DNA from: Rhizobium sp. Root1220
GTDB lineage: Bacteria; Pseudomonadota; Alphaproteobacteria; Rhizobiales; Rhizobiaceae
DNA: 64,000 nt
Direction of reading: 5' to 3'
NCBI RefSeq assembly: GCF_001426265.1
Contig: NZ_LMDG01000035.1
Coordinates: forward strand, 248,001-312,000
The notes beneath the pieces are model-generated. The model was not told the DNA's origin. It searched no databases and worked only from the letters and a program-made list of their open reading frames with translations. A program made the position numbers and the translations under genes. This document shows, one piece after another, positions 42,058 to 53,004 of this stretch. Each line of letters begins with the position of its first letter. Position 1 is the stretch's first letter.

Positions 42058-43494
42058 ATGCGCATTGCAGTTGGCGGAATTCATACGGAATGCAGCACTT
42101 ATTCACCGGTGCTGATGGGCGTCGAGGATTTTCGCGTCATGCGTGGCGCAGATCTCATCGGCTCGGAGTATTTCAGCTTCCTGGCGGCGGACGGTGTCGA
42201 GCCTTTGCCACTCCTGCATGCCCGCGCCGTCCCCGGTGGTCCGGTCTCGCGGGTAGCCTACGAGGCGTTCAAGGCGGAATTCCTGGATCTCCTGAAGGCG
42301 GCGCTGCCGCTCGATGGGCTCTACCTCGCCATGCACGGCGCGGTGAATGTCGAGGGCATGGACGATGCCGAGGGTGACTGGATCTCGTCGGCCCGGTCCG
42401 TCACCGGCCCCGAGTGCGTCGTTGCCGCAAGCTACGACCTGCACGGCAATGTCAGCCAGCGGGTCGTCGACCAACTCGACATCTTCGCGGCTTATCGCAC
42501 GGCGCCCCATATCGACGTGCGCTCGACCATGGTTCGCGCCTGGTCGATGCTCGTCGATGCGCTGACGTCAGGCAATCGCCCGGGCGTCGCCTGGGCGCCG
42601 GTGCCCGTGCTGCTGCCCGGCGAATGCACCTCGACGGAGGATGAGCCGGCAAAGGGCATCTATCTGTCGCTGCCGGAATTTGACGCCCGTCCCGGCATTC
42701 TCGATGCGAACCTGATGATCGGCTATGTATGGGCCGACGAACCGCGGGCGACGGCCTGCGCTGTCGTGACCGGCTCGGACCGGCAGGCCGCCGCAAGGGC
42801 TGCCGAGGAAATTGCGCTCTCCTATTGGAACGCCCGTGATGATTTCCGTTTCGGCCCGATCACGGGCCCGCTCGAAGACATGCTCGATATCGCCGAAGGC
42901 GCATCCACCGCGCCCGTCATTCTTGCCGACTCGGCCGACAACCCGACCGGTGGCGGCGTTGGCGATCGGGCCGATGTATTGAAGGCGTTGATCGCTCGTC
43001 GTTTCAGCGGCGCTCTGGTTGCTGGCATTACCGACCGGCCGGCCGTCGAGGCTTGTTTTGCCGTCGGCACGCGTGCGGCGCTCAGGCTGGACCTTGGCGG
43101 AAGTCTAGATCCCTCGAGCGTCCCCGTCGCGGTCGACGCTGAAGTTCTGGTGCTGGATGATCCGGGCGCCGCCGCCGAGCGGCAAGCCGTCATCCGCGTC
43201 GACGGCATTACCGTCGTGCTGGCCGCTCGCCGGCGGCCCTATCACAACATCGCCGATTTCAACCAGCTCGGCCTCGATCCGAAATCGGTGCGGCTGCTCG
43301 TCGTCAAATCCGGTTATCTATCGCCAGAGCTGGCGCCGCTCGCCAATCCCAACCTGATGGCTTTGACGGACGGTGTTGTCAATCAGCACATCGAAGGCCT
43401 CGCCAGCAACCGGCGGATTGGGCCCGTTTTTCCGTTCGACCGCGACTTTGCCTTCGAAGCGCATGCCCGCCTTTCGGCACGCTGGCAACAATGA
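42058..43494 (+). CDS. MlrC-like (M81 family) metalloenzyme 2
   Basis: 478 residues. Same architecture as the M81 protein at 35920: IAVGGIHTECSTYSPVLMG, YLAMHGAVNVEGMDDAEGDW, DLHGNVS and a C-terminal MlrC domain (RLLVVKSGYLSPELAPLANP). The two are clearly different in sequence, so this is not a recent duplication. It lies directly after GH20 and overlaps the MFS start by four bases. Having one M81 gene in each arm suggests two hydrolytic steps or two related substrates. Confidence 0.9.
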   Translation: MRIAVGGIHTECSTYSPVLMGVEDFRVMRGADLIGSEYFSFLAADGVEPLPLLHARAVPGGPVSRVAYEAFKAEFLDLLKAALPLDGLYLAMHGAVNVEGMDDAEGDWISSARSVTGPECVVAASYDLHGNVSQRVVDQLDIFAAYRTAPHIDVRSTMVRAWSMLVDALTSGNRPGVAWAPVPVLLPGECTSTEDEPAKGIYLSLPEFDARPGILDANLMIGYVWADEPRATACAVVTGSDRQAAARAAEEIALSYWNARDDFRFGPITGPLEDMLDIAEGASTAPVILADSADNPTGGGVGDRADVLKALIARRFSGALVAGITDRPAVEACFAVGTRAALRLDLGGSLDPSSVPVAVDAEVLVLDDPGAAAERQAVIRVDGITVVLAARRRPYHNIADFNQLGLDPKSVRLLVVKSGYLSPELAPLANPNLMALTDGVVNQHIEGLASNRRIGPVFPFDRDFAFEAHARLSARWQQ

Positions 43495-45452: not shown

Positions 45453-46580
45453 ATGATCAATGCGTTCGGTGAAGATACCTATCTGGCGCTTGTGCAGTCC
45501 ATTTACGAGACGGTCGTAACCCCCCACGAATGGGACAAGGTTATCGCGGAGACAATCGAGATCACGCAGGCCTCCGCGGCGGCGATCGTAGGTTTCAGGA
45601 GGCCTGACGATCGAAGGGTGTCTGGTTTCGCAAAGGGGATTTCGAAGGCGCAGCTATGCAGCCCGCAGGTGATTGGCGCGCTGTACGCCTGCACACTGAA
45701 CGCAGGCCAGGGTGCAGTGGTGAACATTGATTTCAAAACGCGACTTAGCCCGCAATGGGGCGCTTCGCTGCAGGAATGCTTCGGCAACGAAGGCATGCTG
45801 CTCGTGCTCGTCGTGATGAAGGAAAGCGGTCGGCAGATTTCCCTCATGGTGCATTTCAACCGTGCCGGCCGGACTGAGATCGAGCGGGCAACCGAGGCCT
45901 TGATGAAACTTCTTCCGCATTTTCAGACTGCGTTCGCCATCCAGAAGGCGACCCTTCTGGAGCGCGAACGATCCTCCAATATGGAGAGTGCCTTCTTTAG
46001 TTCGCCGGTTCCCTCAGCGATCATCACAGCCGACTACCAGGTTCGCCTGGCCAACACCGGTTTCGAGAAATTCGCTGAAGCATCCCACCAGCTGATCGAA
46101 TACCGGGATTCCATTTTGGATATTACCGATCCTGAGCTTCGCGATGTCATCGCTCGCCTCGTCGGCATGTCGGGGCAGCATAGCCGCATGCGGCATATCG
46201 CCTGCGCAGAGGACCGGACCAAGAGTGTCAAATGGCTGGTCAGCATCGATGCCTTGACGGGACGCTGCGCCTTCGGGGCACAATTCAAGAGCGTGTTTGC
46301 CAGCAGCGATCCGGTCTATATGCTCACCATGCGTGAACTGGGCAGAAACACGCTGCTTCAACCGGAAATGATAAGATCGGTTTTTGGCCTGACCTCGACC
46401 GAGGCCAATCTCGCCCATTGCCTGCTGAACGGCGAAACAGCTTCCGAGATTGCGCGGCAGCGCGGCGTGTCGAAAAACACGATTCACAACCAGCTCGCGT
46501 CGGCAATGGCCCGCATAGGCGTCAATCGGCAGACACAATTCATGCACTGCCTCGCCGAGCTCTCGTCCTTCACGTTCTGA
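45453..46580 (+). CDS. LuxR-family HTH transcriptional regulator
   Basis: 375 residues. The last ~65 residues form a LuxR/FixJ HTH (LTSTEANLAHCLLNGETASE; IARQRGVSKNTIHNQLASAM). The middle (FSSPVPSAIITADYQVRLAN) resembles a PAS sensor domain, and the first ~180 residues may be GAF-like. There is no REC domain, so it is not a classical response regulator. GGGAGTAGG precedes the ATG. It converges with the beta-barrel gene of the curli-like locus; CsgD, the E. coli curli regulator, is also of the LuxR/FixJ type, so a regulatory link is plausible but unproven. Confidence 0.88.
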   Translation: MINAFGEDTYLALVQSIYETVVTPHEWDKVIAETIEITQASAAAIVGFRRPDDRRVSGFAKGISKAQLCSPQVIGALYACTLNAGQGAVVNIDFKTRLSPQWGASLQECFGNEGMLLVLVVMKESGRQISLMVHFNRAGRTEIERATEALMKLLPHFQTAFAIQKATLLERERSSNMESAFFSSPVPSAIITADYQVRLANTGFEKFAEASHQLIEYRDSILDITDPELRDVIARLVGMSGQHSRMRHIACAEDRTKSVKWLVSIDALTGRCAFGAQFKSVFASSDPVYMLTMRELGRNTLLQPEMIRSVFGLTSTEANLAHCLLNGETASEIARQRGVSKNTIHNQLASAMARIGVNRQTQFMHCLAELSSFTF

Positions 46581-46598
46581 GAGGGTGGAGGGCCGGGA

Positions 46599-47906
46599 TC
46601 AGAAGTGCCACGTCACGTTGACTGAAGCATTGTAGCCAAGGGCATGGCTCATGTCGATCGTCGGGGAAACGACGCCGGCATCATTGACGTACTTGACCGT
46701 GGGAACCTTGCTGGTGAAATCAACACCCGTGTTGAAGCCGATTTCAACGTTCTCTTTCACGGCATAGCGCACGCCGGCATTCAGCCCGGCCAGCAGGGCA
46801 GCGCCGTTGCGCGTTTGCTCAAGCGCATCGAAACTCCCATTCGCCGCATTGGGGAGCATTGCCGAAAATTGACTTCGGTACTTCGAATGTAGATAGGCGC
46901 CACCCAATCTTGCATCAAGCGAGACACGTAGATCCGGCTGCACCCATTTCGTTATCGTCAGCCCACCGATCGCGCCGACATAGCGCGCATCCAGTTGATC
47001 GTTCTGGGCAAAACCAAGCGTGGGGACGTTAACTCCCGAGATGCTTTCGCCGATGTCGATCGTTCGCGTGAAGTCGACATCACGATCGATCGACCGATAG
47101 GTCGGCCCGAACTTGGGCGTCACGGACCAACCGTCGCTGAGGTCGATCGGCGCACCGAGCAGCAATGTCTGGTCGATGACGGTGGTATCTTCCGAGCGCG
47201 AGTCTATCACGGCGCTGTTGCTAAGGTCGCCCAACGCGCTGAAGGTGAAGCCTGTGTTGTCGCCATACGCGGCATAGGCTGCGGCACTCGGAGTGTCGCC
47301 ATTCGTGACGAGCGCCGTAAAGGCACCTCCGGTTATCGTGGTGCTCGATGCAAATTGGGTAACTTGTCCGCCTGCAGGAGACGAGGCGGATGAAGCGATG
47401 GTTGCCGTCCCACCCGCGCTATCATTGACGGTCACGAGGGCCGTAGCGGCAGCCGGCAGCACGCCGATCGCCGAAGCGGTCAGCGCGATGCTGCCGTTGG
47501 CCCTGTTGCCGAAGCTCATGTCGAACGTGTTCTGTCCCGCCAAGCTCGTCCTGCTGTTTGAACTGGAAGACAGATCGGCGATGCCGCCGTTCCATTCGAG
47601 GACCAGCGGCTGAGAGCCGATTTCTCCGAGCGGTATGTCCAGGCTGTAGCCAACGCCGAGCCCGTTGTCGGTCAGTCGGCTGCCCTCGCTTCCTCCAAAG
47701 AAATCCGTGCGTCGGGAATCCCAACTCGGCAGGTTCAGCCAGTTTACGCCGATCACGATGTCCAGCGATGAATCCGTTGGCGCATCACCCACTGGCTGCG
47801 GAGATTTGTTGTCGTCGGCCAAGGCGTCCTGACCGACCAAAATTGCGAGTGTCGCGAGAACAATAGCGACCGGTCTGCCCGACCGAACGGCTGCGCGGAT
47901 CCCCAT
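46599..47906 (-). CDS. Outer-membrane beta-barrel protein next to the curli-like genes
   Basis: 435 residues. The signal peptide (VAIVLATLAILVGQDALA) is followed by a long region of alternating residues and short Gly/Ser/Ala-rich turns. The last residues (LGYNASVNVTWHF) are a textbook C-terminal beta-signal ending in Phe, so it should be inserted by BAM. Residues about 130-230 are rich in Ala, Ser and Thr and could be an extended loop or plug. The family is not recognised. GGAGGAGA precedes the ATG. It follows the CsgH-like gene on the same strand, with a 134-base gap that may hold its own promoter. Confidence 0.8.
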   Translation of the reverse strand: MGIRAAVRSGRPVAIVLATLAILVGQDALADDNKSPQPVGDAPTDSSLDIVIGVNWLNLPSWDSRRTDFFGGSEGSRLTDNGLGVGYSLDIPLGEIGSQPLVLEWNGGIADLSSSSNSRTSLAGQNTFDMSFGNRANGSIALTASAIGVLPAAATALVTVNDSAGGTATIASSASSPAGGQVTQFASSTTITGGAFTALVTNGDTPSAAAYAAYGDNTGFTFSALGDLSNSAVIDSRSEDTTVIDQTLLLGAPIDLSDGWSVTPKFGPTYRSIDRDVDFTRTIDIGESISGVNVPTLGFAQNDQLDARYVGAIGGLTITKWVQPDLRVSLDARLGGAYLHSKYRSQFSAMLPNAANGSFDALEQTRNGAALLAGLNAGVRYAVKENVEIGFNTGVDFTSKVPTVKYVNDAGVVSPTIDMSHALGYNASVNVTWHF

Positions 47907-48040
47907 TCTCCTCCGTCACCCCAGTATGCGCCGGGAAAACCACGGCCGACTCACTGCGAGCAATTGTTACTATATATTAGAATATAATCAATCGGCTGCA
48001 CGCTTCTGTTCATCAAGCGATGACAAGCGGTGCAGAAATG

Positions 48041-48337
48041 TCACGGGACCGAGACGGTGCAGAGTTTCTCTCCATCCGGGCCATAGACCGTCAGACGGGC
48101 GGTCCAGCCGCCTTTCGATATTGTCGAGCGGGATAGTGCGAGGCGCCCCGAATCCGTTTTCTCGAAGTCGCCGCCTTGCGAGTTGCTGGATCTATTGCCT
48201 CCGGAGCTGGAAATGATCTCGAATTGAAAGGTCCCCTGGGTGCGACCGCCACCCACAATCGTAGGAACGACGGTCGTCATCCCGCCTTTGTCCTGATGCT
48301 CGATAGTGCAATGCATGGGAGGAAGGGCAGCCATCAT
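48041..48337 (-). CDS. csgH: Curli-assembly chaperone-like protein, CsgH family
   Basis: 98 residues. The pattern FEIISSSGGNRSSNSQGGDF, then LSRSTISKGGWTARLTVYG, matches the small beta-sandwich CsgH proteins of alphaproteobacteria, which relate functionally to CsgC and keep curlin from aggregating in the periplasm. Cys10 and Cys94 could form a disulfide. AGGAGG lies 7 bases before the ATG. No signal peptide is visible in this frame, although the family is periplasmic, and no start codon exists upstream in frame. It lies downstream of the curlin gene with a hairpin between them. Confidence 0.75.
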   Translation of the reverse strand: MMAALPPMHCTIEHQDKGGMTTVVPTIVGGGRTQGTFQFEIISSSGGNRSSNSQGGDFEKTDSGRLALSRSTISKGGWTARLTVYGPDGEKLCTVSVP

Positions 48338-48360
48338 TGTTTGCCTCCTGGAAGGAAGAA

Positions 48361-48383
48361 GGCCAGCGGTGTCAGCGCTGGCC
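48361..48383 (-). promoter_or_regulatory. Hairpin between curlin and CsgH-like genes
   Basis: An 8-bp stem (GGCCAGCG/CGCTGGCC) with a 7-base loop sits in the 62-base gap. On the transcribed strand it is followed by TTCTTCCTTCC, which is not a true T tract. It likely lets the curlin message exceed that of the chaperone. Confidence 0.6.
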
Positions 48384-48399
48384 GTTAGTTGTGTACGAA

Positions 48400-48762
48400 C
48401 TAGTACTGAACCGTGACAGAGCTGTTGCCCTTGCCGTTCTGATAGGTTGAAGAGTTGTTGCCATGGCCGAATTGCAGCGTTCCGGAGACGTTGCCTCTGC
48501 CGTTCTGATCGGTATACGAGGTGTTACCGAAACCGAATTGGGCAGTGCCGGACACATTGCGGCGGCCGCTCTGGACTGTCGTCGAGTCGTTCCAGCCACC
48601 AACCTGCAAGGTTCCGCTGAAATTACGTTTGCCGGATTGACCTGTGCCAGCCATGTTGCCCCAGCCATTCTGGCTGGTAACGGCGGTGTTGTCTGCCGCA
48701 TAAGCTGCAGTAACCGATGCAATTGCGATAAGTGCGGAAAATACTACGACCTTGATTCCCAT
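48400..48762 (-). CDS. Curlin-repeat amyloid subunit (CsgA/CsgB-like)
   Basis: 120 residues. The signal peptide (MGIKVVVFSALIAIASVTAA) is cleaved before ADNTAV. The mature part is almost entirely eight consecutive 11-residue units of the form S-x-T-x-Q-x-G-x-x-N-x (for example SGTLQVGGWND, SGTAQFGFGNT, SYTDQNGRGNV), plus a final SVTVQY. This Gln/Asn/Gly pattern is the curlin repeat, which stacks into the cross-beta fibre. GGAGG plus AGGAGA precede the ATG. A CsgH-like gene follows. CsgE, CsgF and CsgG genes are not in the window. Confidence 0.93.
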   Translation of the reverse strand: MGIKVVVFSALIAIASVTAAYAADNTAVTSQNGWGNMAGTGQSGKRNFSGTLQVGGWNDSTTVQSGRRNVSGTAQFGFGNTSYTDQNGRGNVSGTLQFGHGNNSSTYQNGKGNSSVTVQY

Positions 48763-49063
48763 TGTCTTTCTCCTATCCTCCCCGTCGGAATTGACGGTTG
48801 AGAAACACTACCGCAGAGTGTTCAAGACACGACCGTCAAAGCTTACCTACCCGAGAGTTGAAGTTCACAACGAGGACCAACGAAAGCATGATCGCCGTGA
48901 TGTAATTGATGGAACGCCATTGCCGTTTGCCTCGTCGCAATAGCGAAACATACTATGTGGCTGGTCGCTTTCACCGATCAATCGAAGGGCCAACGAATAT
49001 TTCAAGTTGAAGAATTCGGGCGCGGCCGCCGGAAACACCTCGCCTTGATTGTCGCGCAACAAT
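48763..49063. other. 301-base gap between curlin and AraC genes
   Basis: It holds the curlin ribosome-binding site, the nested dyad and presumably the curlin promoter. No supported gene is seen in the remaining part next to the AraC gene end. Confidence 0.5.
48791..48839 (-). promoter_or_regulatory. Nested dyad in front of the curlin gene
   Basis: Two nearly concentric inverted repeats: outer TTGACGGT (48791-48798) with ACCGTCAA (48832-48839), inner AACACT (48804-48809) with AGTGTT (48817-48822). It ends 28 bases before the curlin ATG. It may be a dimeric regulator site or a folded 5' leader of the curlin message. Confidence 0.6.
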
Positions 49064-49996
49064 CTACACGTCGCTGCCCATATCGGATTGTGCCCGCCGG
49101 AAACGGGAAGGCGTCAGTTCTCTCTTCGTCTTGAAGGCCTTGGCAAAGGCCGCTTCGGATTCGTAGCCGACAGCGACGGCGATGTCCGCGACGCTGCGGT
49201 GCGTCTGCAGCAGCAGGTCGCTTGCCATGCTCATCCGAAAATCAGTCAGAAAGGCGCCGACGGTGAACCCCGACCGGTCCCTGAAGCGCCGCGCGTAAGT
49301 CGCGCGGGACATTGCGGAAAGCCGCGCCAGATCGTCGATCGTCCAGGGATGCGACGGTGCAGCCACGATCGACCTGACCGATTTGCCAAGCCTGGGATCC
49401 GTGAGCAGCGGCAGCAGTCCCGGCACCTCAAGCGGCGAATTGCCGGTGGTTCTGACTGCCATGACGAAGAGGGCAAGACACATGGCGGTCACAACGGTCA
49501 GCGCGCCGGGCAGCTCGAGCGCAGTCTCCTGACGCAACAGCGAAACCATCGTCCTCAGCGTTTGCTCCGACTGTGCATTCGACAGGGACGCGTGAAAAAC
49601 ATCGGGCAAGGTGTCAAGCAGCAGCGTCGAGGTGGCGGAGGCCGAGGTGAAATGACCACAAAGCAGATCGACGTCCGGGTCGCCATCGCCATTTCTGCGC
49701 AGCGGCAACATGCCGTCCACCGTTACCTCCAGAGGTGCCGCGCGCCCATGCGGATGTGCGCCGACGATGGCGTGCGCCTCGCCTCTCGGGAACATCAGGA
49801 AATCGCCGGACTTCATTGTCACCTGCCGGCCTGCGCCCGTGCGGATGATGCATTGACCTCCGAGGACGAGGTGAAAGGGAATTGTCCCGCCCTCGACGAT
49901 ATCGTGTTCGATCTGGAACGTTCCCCTCAGCTTGCAGCGTATGTCCAGCGATGGCTGCAGGCGCGAGAGATCAATGAGGCGGCTGAGGACATCCAT
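49064..49996 (-). CDS. AraC family transcriptional regulator
   Basis: 310 residues. An N-terminal cupin-like ligand domain (SGDFLMFPRGEAHAIVGAHP) and a C-terminal double HTH (TIDDLARLSAMSRATYARRF; VADIAVAVGYESEAAFAKAF). This AraC subtype often lies divergent to the gene it activates, here the AhpD-like gene at 50114. The ATG at 49996 fits the family N-terminus (MDVLSRLIDLSRLQPS); the frame is open 12 codons further to 50032. Effector unknown. Confidence 0.9.
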   Translation of the reverse strand: MDVLSRLIDLSRLQPSLDIRCKLRGTFQIEHDIVEGGTIPFHLVLGGQCIIRTGAGRQVTMKSGDFLMFPRGEAHAIVGAHPHGRAAPLEVTVDGMLPLRRNGDGDPDVDLLCGHFTSASATSTLLLDTLPDVFHASLSNAQSEQTLRTMVSLLRQETALELPGALTVVTAMCLALFVMAVRTTGNSPLEVPGLLPLLTDPRLGKSVRSIVAAPSHPWTIDDLARLSAMSRATYARRFRDRSGFTVGAFLTDFRMSMASDLLLQTHRSVADIAVAVGYESEAAFAKAFKTKRELTPSRFRRAQSDMGSDV

Positions 49997-50113
49997 GAGA
50001 CGATCGCACCATAAAATGAGAGTCTGACGCATTTAAAGAAGCACGCGGCAGGTTCATATTCTCTTTCAACAGCACAGGCAATGACGCCCACGCTAATGGC
50101 AAAGGAGAGTTTT

Positions 50114-51612: not shown

Positions 51613-52983
51613 TCAGGCGGCCTGAACCTTGCGGGCGGTGCGCGCCCATTCCGGCAGCCAGTCGCCATGGGCGGCAAGCAGTTCGTCCGTCATCGCCCAG
51701 ATCTGGTCGAGATCGAGCTCGGCGGCCGTATGCGGGTCCATCATCGCGGCGTGGTAGATGTGTTCGCGATTTTCCGTCATCAGCGCCTGAACTGTCAGCT
51801 CCTGCACGTTGATGTTGGTGCGGATCAGCGCCGTCAGCTGCGGTGGCAGATCGCCGATATAGGTCGGCTGGATACCCGACGCGTCAACCAGGCAGGGAAC
51901 CTCCGCGGCGCAATTATCAGGCAGCGAAGTGATGCAGCCGTTATTGCGGACGTTGCCGTAGATGACGGAGGGCTCGCCCGTCCATACCGAGTTGATGATC
52001 GAGGAGGCGTACTCCTTCGACTGCGCGACCTCGATCTTGTCGGCGGATCGATAGGCTTCCGCCTGCCCTTTCCAGCGTGCGATCTGCTCGATGCAGCGCT
52101 TCGGATACTCATCGAGCGGAATGCCGAACTTTTCGATCAGGTCTTCGCGACCTTCCTTGATGAAGTAGGGCGTGTATTCGGCGAAGTGTTCCGAGCTTTC
52201 GGTGACGAAATAGCCGAGGCGGGTCAGCATTTCGTAGCGCACCTTGTTCGGGCAACGCGGGTTCCAGCCGGGCTTCGGCGCACGGCCTTCGCGATAGGCG
52301 CGTACCAGATCGGGATAGAGGTTCTTGTAGGAACCGTCGGCCTGGCGATGCTCGAACTTCAGATAGAAAGCCATGTGGTTGATGCCGGCCGAGCGGTAGC
52401 GGATCTCCTCGTAGGGAATGTCGAGGTCGTGCGCCAGCTCCATTGCCGTGCCCTGCACCGAGTGGCAGAGGCCGACCTGCTTGATCGTTGGATACTTCTC
52501 GGCGATTGCCCAGGTGTTGATCGCCATCGGGTTGACGTATTGCAGCATGATCGCCTCCGGGCAGACGGCGAGCATGTCCTCGCAGATCTTCCACAGATGC
52601 GGCACGGTGCGCAGCCCGCGCATGATGCCGCCGACGCCGAGCGTATCGGCAATCGTCTGGCGCAGGCCGAATTTCTTCGGGATTTCGAAGTCGGTCACGG
52701 TGCAGGGCTCATAGCCGCCGATCTGGAAGGCGACGACGACGAAGTCAGCGCCGGTCAGCGCTTTGCGCTGGTCCGAATAGGTCTCGGCCTTGGCCTTGAC
52801 GCCAAGCGTCGAGATCAGCTTGTTGACGACGATGGCGCTTTCTTCAAGCCGCTGCGGGTTGATGTCCATCAGGGCGATGGTCGCCCCGGACAGCGCGGGA
52901 CGCTGCAGCACGTCGCCGATGATGTTCTTCATGAAGACGGTGGAGCCCGCTCCGATAAATGTGATCTTGGGATTTCTTGCCAT
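51613..52983 (-). CDS. agaL2: Alpha-galactosidase, GH4
   Basis: 456 residues. NAD-dependent GH4 enzyme: ITFIGAGSTVFMKNIIGDVL (NAD loop), IMLQYVNPMAINTWAI and the metal-binding GLCHSVQGTAMELA. It hydrolyses melibiose and raffinose after uptake. There is no signal peptide. The ATG at 52983 has GGAGG upstream. Last gene of the agaL1-agpABCD-agaL2 operon; the other GH4 gene is the first, and the two enzymes are distinctly different in sequence. Confidence 0.92.
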   Translation of the reverse strand: MARNPKITFIGAGSTVFMKNIIGDVLQRPALSGATIALMDINPQRLEESAIVVNKLISTLGVKAKAETYSDQRKALTGADFVVVAFQIGGYEPCTVTDFEIPKKFGLRQTIADTLGVGGIMRGLRTVPHLWKICEDMLAVCPEAIMLQYVNPMAINTWAIAEKYPTIKQVGLCHSVQGTAMELAHDLDIPYEEIRYRSAGINHMAFYLKFEHRQADGSYKNLYPDLVRAYREGRAPKPGWNPRCPNKVRYEMLTRLGYFVTESSEHFAEYTPYFIKEGREDLIEKFGIPLDEYPKRCIEQIARWKGQAEAYRSADKIEVAQSKEYASSIINSVWTGEPSVIYGNVRNNGCITSLPDNCAAEVPCLVDASGIQPTYIGDLPPQLTALIRTNINVQELTVQALMTENREHIYHAAMMDPHTAAELDLDQIWAMTDELLAAHGDWLPEWARTARKVQAA

Positions 52984-53004
52984 TATAACCTCCGGCATGT
53001 GCAA

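Follow-up and report, generated by a model that had tools for sequence, protein, structure and literature searches.

How might a curlin subunit cross the outer membrane of a bacterium in whose genome neither CsgG nor CsgF is found, and what part is played by the secreted, barrel-like protein encoded beside it? Both questions are raised by a locus within the 64,000-nucleotide stretch of Rhizobium sp. Root1220 DNA analysed here (the window). The minus strand carries, in this order, genes for a curlin-repeat subunit, a CsgH-family chaperone and the barrel-like protein (hereafter the barrel), beyond which a gene for a LuxR-type regulator lies on the plus strand (Table 1). A preliminary description of this DNA had reported the first three genes, and its account of a 120-residue protein made of eight 11-residue units, of a CsgH-like gene 62 bases downstream, and of a barrel-like protein with a signal-peptide-like start (judged by eye) and a VTWHF terminus is borne out. 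The regulator gene, absent from that description, is an additional member of the set. As judged from sequence comparison, the four genes are a co-inherited module that constitutes a predicted new variant of curli. The barrel is very probably a dedicated functional partner of curlin in some role. We propose that this role may be that of a dedicated outer-membrane exit channel for curlin, by analogy with FapF, a reading to which we assign a probability of roughly 0.4.

Table 1. Features of the curlin locus, in positions of the window
Feature	Position	Strand	Remarks
LuxR-type (GerE) regulator, 375 aa	45453..46580	+	Convergent with the barrel gene; Pfam match
Secreted protein, outer-membrane-barrel-like, 435 aa	46599..47906	-	Signal-peptide-like N-terminus by eye; ends in VTWHF
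AT-rich block, possible promoter or operator	47960..47993	-	Upstream of the barrel gene; judged alike by eye in all six close loci
CsgH-family chaperone, 98 aa	48041..48337	-	No signal peptide; conserved Cys10 and Cys93 (NCBIfam, alignment)
Ribosome-binding site AGGAGG	48344..48349	-	6 nt upstream of the csgH ATG
8-pair stem-loop, terminator- or attenuator-like	48361..48383	-	Between the curlin gene and csgH
Curlin-repeat subunit, 120 aa	48400..48762	-	Signal peptide at about residues 1-22 (by eye), eight 11-residue units directly after

The curlin subunit and the barrel

The curlin protein contains eight Q-x-G-x-x-N units, and eight units of 11 residues amount to about four ordinary 22-residue curlin repeats. 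With 22.6 bits against Pfam Curlin_rpt (PF07012; cut-off 20.7) it belongs among the curlin-repeat proteins, and it matches the curlin-repeat chain 8c50 in the PDB (E 6.4e-12). In a six-frame search of the genome with Curlin_rpt, its two pieces scored 13.9 and 13.2 bits, below the cut-off. The AlphaFold prediction for curlin with the homolog from Rhizobium sp. R711 has a pLDDT of 49.6, too low for use; it contains eight short strands about 11 residues apart, which are compatible with a solenoid. A missing N22 export signal was considered as a mark of independence from CsgG and was dropped, since N22 seems to be missing from CsgG-linked curlins in the genus as well. An N22-like sequence is described as an outlier rather than the rule among curlins in a passage of PMC10192328.

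The barrel probably inserts into the outer membrane and adopts a barrel fold, as its signal-peptide-like start and terminal Phe would indicate; the C-terminal Phe is present in all 13 aligned barrels, the more distant of which retain as little as 21-33% identity with the protein from the window. No family in Pfam or NCBIfam matches the window's barrel at E values up to 1, and its sole match in the PDB is at chance level (UvrA, E 0.74). Likewise, a profile of nine barrels finds no solved chain at E values up to 10 in the PDB, where the chains searched presumably include the structures of FapF. One distant barrel (L107) shows a sub-threshold match to OMP_b-brl (E 0.31). The AlphaFold prediction for the window's barrel with its R711 homolog has a pLDDT of 27.9, and a count of amphipathic strands is not significant, with 17 peaks where 50 column shuffles gave 14.0 (sd 2.9, maximum 21).

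Distribution and inheritance of the module

Searches with barrel sequences recovered 13 distinct barrels scoring above 60 bits, the window's included, and these span three families of the order. Of the 13, 12 have both curlin and csgH genes within about 5 kb, in at least four gene orders, which gives 12 module loci (the window, G028, G052, G054, G001, R711, G044, G398, G167, G572, G644 and G574). This adjacency supports the proposal of the preliminary description that the barrel could be a new partner of the fibre. The exception is G417, where a barrel of 118 bits (L099, 9715-10938) has no curlin, csgH or luxR match within 20 kb, and where CsgG, CsgF and curlins are present elsewhere in the genome. 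This relative of the barrel has an odd repetitive N-terminus under its called start.

Homologs of the LuxR-type gene stand beside 11 of the 12 module barrels, the one missing being that of G574. Those of R711, G398 and G167 match GerE in Pfam. In G572 and G644 the homologs are remote (26% identity over 260-280 residues), and Pfam at E values up to 1 does not identify GerE in them.

Among 100 relatives, the window's genome included, a search with the single barrel sequence produced matches in 7 genomes, and the 13-member profile matched 12, of which 6 are full-length and the remainder partial at 18-50 bits. A scan of a genome collection added one barrel, that of Rhizobium sp. R711 (Rhizobiaceae). 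Barrels were also found in 5 of 394 genomes of the window's family (the window, G398, G167, G417 and one weak match), in 5 of 397 genomes of the order (the window, G572, G644, G574 and one weak match) and, among 385 genomes of the class, in the window only, in searches that scored at most four first-look candidates per genome and possibly missed distant barrels. Weak matches (18-50 bits) outside the 13 occur in G339, G555, G068, G091, G083, G094 and G058 and twice in G095; the neighbourhoods of those in G068, G339 and G555 contain no curlin, CsgH or LuxR match.

These weak matches bear on an explanation in which the barrel would be just an ordinary porin or receptor, sharing curlin's regulator and growth conditions without contacting curlin. 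Partial and mostly C-terminal similarity at 18-50 bits in G068, G091, G095, G083, G094 and G058 would fit such a protein, as would an additional Pfam match, to BBP2_2, in the N-terminal half of the 814-residue G068 protein. However, 12 of 13 barrels adjoin curlin and csgH genes across three families and despite several rearrangements, and none of the members scanned matches a Pfam or NCBIfam porin family above that family's cut-off. A known, unrelated porin family, which the preliminary description had considered as an outcome for the barrel, was therefore not encountered among these members, and we regard the ordinary-porin explanation as improbable.

All six close loci have one and the same gene order, from which G044, G398, G167 and the loci outside the family depart. 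Shared flanking clusters place the six close loci at three genomic sites (the window with G028, G052 with G001, and G054 with R711), and only the four genes are constant across these sites; the module moves as a unit. Its G+C content is mostly slightly below that of the flanks (56.6-59.0% versus 56.5-61.7%). Carriage on plasmids was considered and dropped after a tblastn search with the barrel gave no match in 72,556 plasmid records, among which close kin of the window's genome may be missing.

The four genes are under purifying selection, with dN/dS values of 0.03-0.45 in five pairs each (0.12-0.21 for the barrel) and some synonymous distances near saturation. Protein distances of the four genes correlate across 11-12 loci (rho 0.65-0.92), a pattern that shared descent alone could yield. 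In a tree of CsgH sequences (45 rows, comprising 39 of the 48 csgH places among the 100 relatives and six others), the nine CsgHs that belong to close or family modules (eight from the family, and R711) form one clade with support values of 99/97, within which, as elsewhere in the tree, long branches including those of distant members may have been joined falsely. The three module CsgHs from outside the family are placed elsewhere.

Absence of CsgG and CsgF

The window's genome (5.75 Mb, 99.4% complete) contains no match to CsgG, in a search that was positive in 4 of 14 control genomes, and no match to CsgF. The alternative offered in the preliminary description, that the export genes lie elsewhere, therefore finds no support for these two across the whole genome. 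CsgG is likewise absent from 11 of the 12 module genomes, and CsgF from 8 of the 9 that were searched for it. The sole module genome with CsgG is G044, a fragmented assembly with 6% contamination in which CsgG is on other contigs.

CsgH was found in 35 of the 100 relatives and CsgG in 19. At the 48 csgH places in these genomes, a barrel is near 6, CsgG is near 14 and neither is near 28. That the barrel would be missing beside csgH in most relatives, a possibility raised in the preliminary description, is thus literally the case. This count tests the association the wrong way round: csgH is often without a barrel, and a barrel is rarely without csgH.

The absence of CsgG from 11 of 12 module genomes compares with its absence from 15 of 29 other CsgH genomes (Fisher one-sided p 0.016, a comparison that pools different sampling schemes and related genomes). 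Restricted to the 100 relatives, the corresponding figures are 5 of 6 and 15 of 29 (p 0.17). Neither CsgG nor the barrel is present in 15 of the 35 CsgH-bearing relatives. Curlin loci free of CsgG can thus do without this barrel, and either another route must exist or the fibres of those genomes are not exported. These 15 genomes are the strongest evidence against the barrel being a general CsgG-free exporter.

Possible roles of the barrel

Since curlin and the barrel, both with signal-peptide-like starts, are encoded together in CsgG-free genomes, a dedicated outer-membrane partner is the simplest reading of the locus. Export is favoured over anchoring because curlin must cross the outer membrane and the locus holds no other candidate. 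The observations behind the exit-channel reading are the gene set, its co-inheritance, purifying selection, the lack of CsgG, and a barrel that begins with a signal-peptide-like sequence and ends in Phe.

In the proposed scheme, the LuxR-type protein would switch the locus on. Curlin would be exported by Sec and held unfolded by CsgH, at a site of action that may lie on either side of this step. The barrel, likewise a predicted Sec substrate, would insert into the outer membrane and let curlin out through its channel, presumably in direct contact with curlin, as FapF does for FapC in Pseudomonas. If true, the exit-channel reading would make the barrel the founder of a new class of amyloid exporters unrelated to CsgG and FapF and, together with CsgH and the LuxR-like regulator, part of a mobile, self-contained cassette of four genes for curlin secretion in Rhizobium and relatives, a broader claim that we put forward tentatively.

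The main rival is that the barrel anchors or nucleates the fibre at the cell surface, as CsgF and CsgB do, while curlin exits by a route common to CsgG-free loci. It holds this rank because CsgG-free loci without a barrel exist and because a second curlin occupies the place of the barrel there. Indeed, 19 of the 21 barrel-less loci mapped have curlin, CsgH and then a second curlin with 2-3 repeats, and in the six close modules the barrel takes that second-curlin place and a single curlin is found. The 15 genomes with CsgH and with neither CsgG nor barrel also suggest that another route exists. On the other hand, two modules from outside the family (L105 and L106) hold two curlins plus the barrel, and the window's barrel has no Pfam curlin-repeat match. 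An anchoring or nucleating role appears rather unlikely to us.

Among the barrel-less loci, L062-L080 (class A loci) have the arrangement curlin (about 8 repeats), CsgH, curlin (2-3 repeats). A further locus, L081 (G098), has five curlin ORFs and three copies of csgH in a span of 20 kb.

The CsgH chaperone and its missing leader

The csgH product is a member of NCBIfam chap_CsgH_alph (NF041112; 61.3 bits, cut-off 35), and it scores 23.5 bits against Pfam CsgH, under the cut-off of 27. With the single sequence from the window the solved CsgH was not found in the PDB, and a profile of eight module CsgHs matches it strongly (2N59, E 2e-17). Cys10 and Cys93 are invariant in all eight aligned CsgHs. 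According to an excerpt of PMC5135000, two distant cysteines pin the N- and C-terminal strands of CsgH, and the cysteine pair of this disulphide is thus retained in the module CsgHs.

The start of csgH is fixed by the AGGAGG sequence, and the curlin stop codon is only 62 bases away. Upstream of the ATG in the same open frame there is no hydrophobic leader, and the protein of the window accordingly has no Sec signal peptide. Of the 9 CsgHs in close and family modules, 7 show no hydrophobic leader upstream of the start. In L057 and L098, which make up the remainder, the open frame extends back into the curlin gene and includes hydrophobic stretches there; an ATG directly precedes the conserved CsgH core in both, and the longer frame is not common to other modules.

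A leaderless CsgH conflicts with the accepted periplasmic role of this chaperone. For the window's CsgH, which lacks a signal peptide, the periplasmic action taken for granted in the preliminary description cannot be assumed. For the solved structure, the CsgH of R. palustris was expressed from residue 10 (as given in a portion of PMC4838910), which suggests that this protein too may carry little or no leader.

We considered the lack of a signal peptide in CsgH as an exclusive mark of the module and dropped it. Three CsgG-linked CsgHs of the genus (L086-L088) also have no evident leader, and by eye the three module CsgHs from outside the family (L105-L107) begin with a sequence resembling a leader. 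With regard to L086-L088, the periplasmic role may not hold for all CsgHs.

The leaderless CsgH and the failure to find CsgG and CsgF in the genome would also be expected if the locus were a remnant, consisting of the curlin and chaperone of a lost curli system and making no fibres. Such decay is very improbable, given dN/dS values of 0.03-0.45 over the four genes (even with some synonymous distances near saturation), the retention of the ribosome-binding site and its spacing, and the joint occurrence of the four genes at different genomic sites.

Comparison with known systems

Like curli (type VIII secretion, csgBAC/csgDEFG), the locus combines curlin repeats, a chaperone of the CsgC/CsgH type and an adjoining LuxR-type regulator; CsgD of curli is also of the LuxR type. 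It differs from curli in that CsgG and CsgF are not found, that a secreted barrel-like protein of no known family is present, and that CsgH is leaderless. Alphaproteobacteria have been reported to be without CsgE, in a section of PMC3521004.

A closer parallel is provided by the CsgA/B+CsgH clusters of Alphaproteobacteria (PMC3521004; PMC12822426), in which curlin and csgH are likewise present and export genes missing. Extracts of these two papers name no additional partner, whereas a minority of such loci here carry the barrel and the LuxR-like gene. A passage of the 2012 study states that many Alphaproteobacteria have only curlins (with csgH) and that the remaining functions must fall to 'alternative proteins' (PMC3521004). 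In the corresponding parts of later work, a 2023 survey gives CsgG as missing in 1033 of 43279 curlin-bearing genomes (PMC10192328), and in a 2025 review CsgA/B+CsgH still ranks as one of the five most frequent curli gene compositions in GTDB, there with no exporter named (PMC12822426). Among the listed titles and abstract openings of open-licence papers, we found no description of a barrel in loci of this type. The module offers a concrete, unannotated candidate partner for part of the Alphaproteobacteria loci that have only curlin and CsgH.

FapF is described in an excerpt of PMC5557850 as a plugged 12-stranded outer-membrane barrel that is required for secretion of the amyloid FapC. The Fap system of Pseudomonas and the module have in common a (here predicted) outer-membrane barrel of similar length encoded with an amyloid subunit. 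They are unlike in that the nine-barrel profile matches no solved chain, that the subunit here is a curlin and the chaperone CsgH, and that genes for curlin, CsgH and LuxR surround the barrel gene in the window in place of a fap operon. FapF exporters are trimers, with an N-terminal coiled coil and a plug helix.

The holdfast anchor HfaABD of Caulobacter is similar in pairing a curlin-like subunit with an outer-membrane partner, and a part of PMC6707917 notes the resemblance of HfaA to curlin. By this likeness, the set might serve to anchor a different polymer at the cell surface, cellulose for instance, and include curlin as a minor component; cellulose synthase (PilZ) genes are indeed near the module in G054 and G001, with GH8 confirmed in G001. 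However, HfaB is CsgG-like and no CsgG/HfaB homolog was found in the window's genome, and three cellulose-type gene clusters are not among the genes called in the 20-kb locus of the window. We consider a polymer anchor of this kind quite improbable.

Noncoding features and neighbouring genes

An inverted repeat is also visible by eye in the gap between curlin and csgH in the other five close loci. The region 46400-49100 contains 4 terminator-like sites compared with 2.9 in shuffles, which is not significant, so the stem-loop of the window is not significant by itself; the 2 promoter-like sites in the same region, against 1.3 expected, are not significant either. A stem-loop at this position may reflect production of the subunit in excess of its chaperone.

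Directly upstream of the curlin gene is a gene for an AraC-type regulator (49064-50032, minus strand) with a cupin domain and an HTH, whose best NCBIfam match is RclR, below the cut-off of that family; it is not a conserved part of the module. Cellulose synthase genes (glycosyltransferase 2 with PilZ, confirmed in both loci) lie to one side of the module in L056 (778-6523) and to the other side in L057 (14261-19991, with a confirmed GH8 gene). Ordinary neighbours in the window include genes for an M81/MlrC metallopeptidase (42058-43494, plus strand) and a family 4 glycosyl hydrolase (51613-53004, minus strand), both identified with Pfam.
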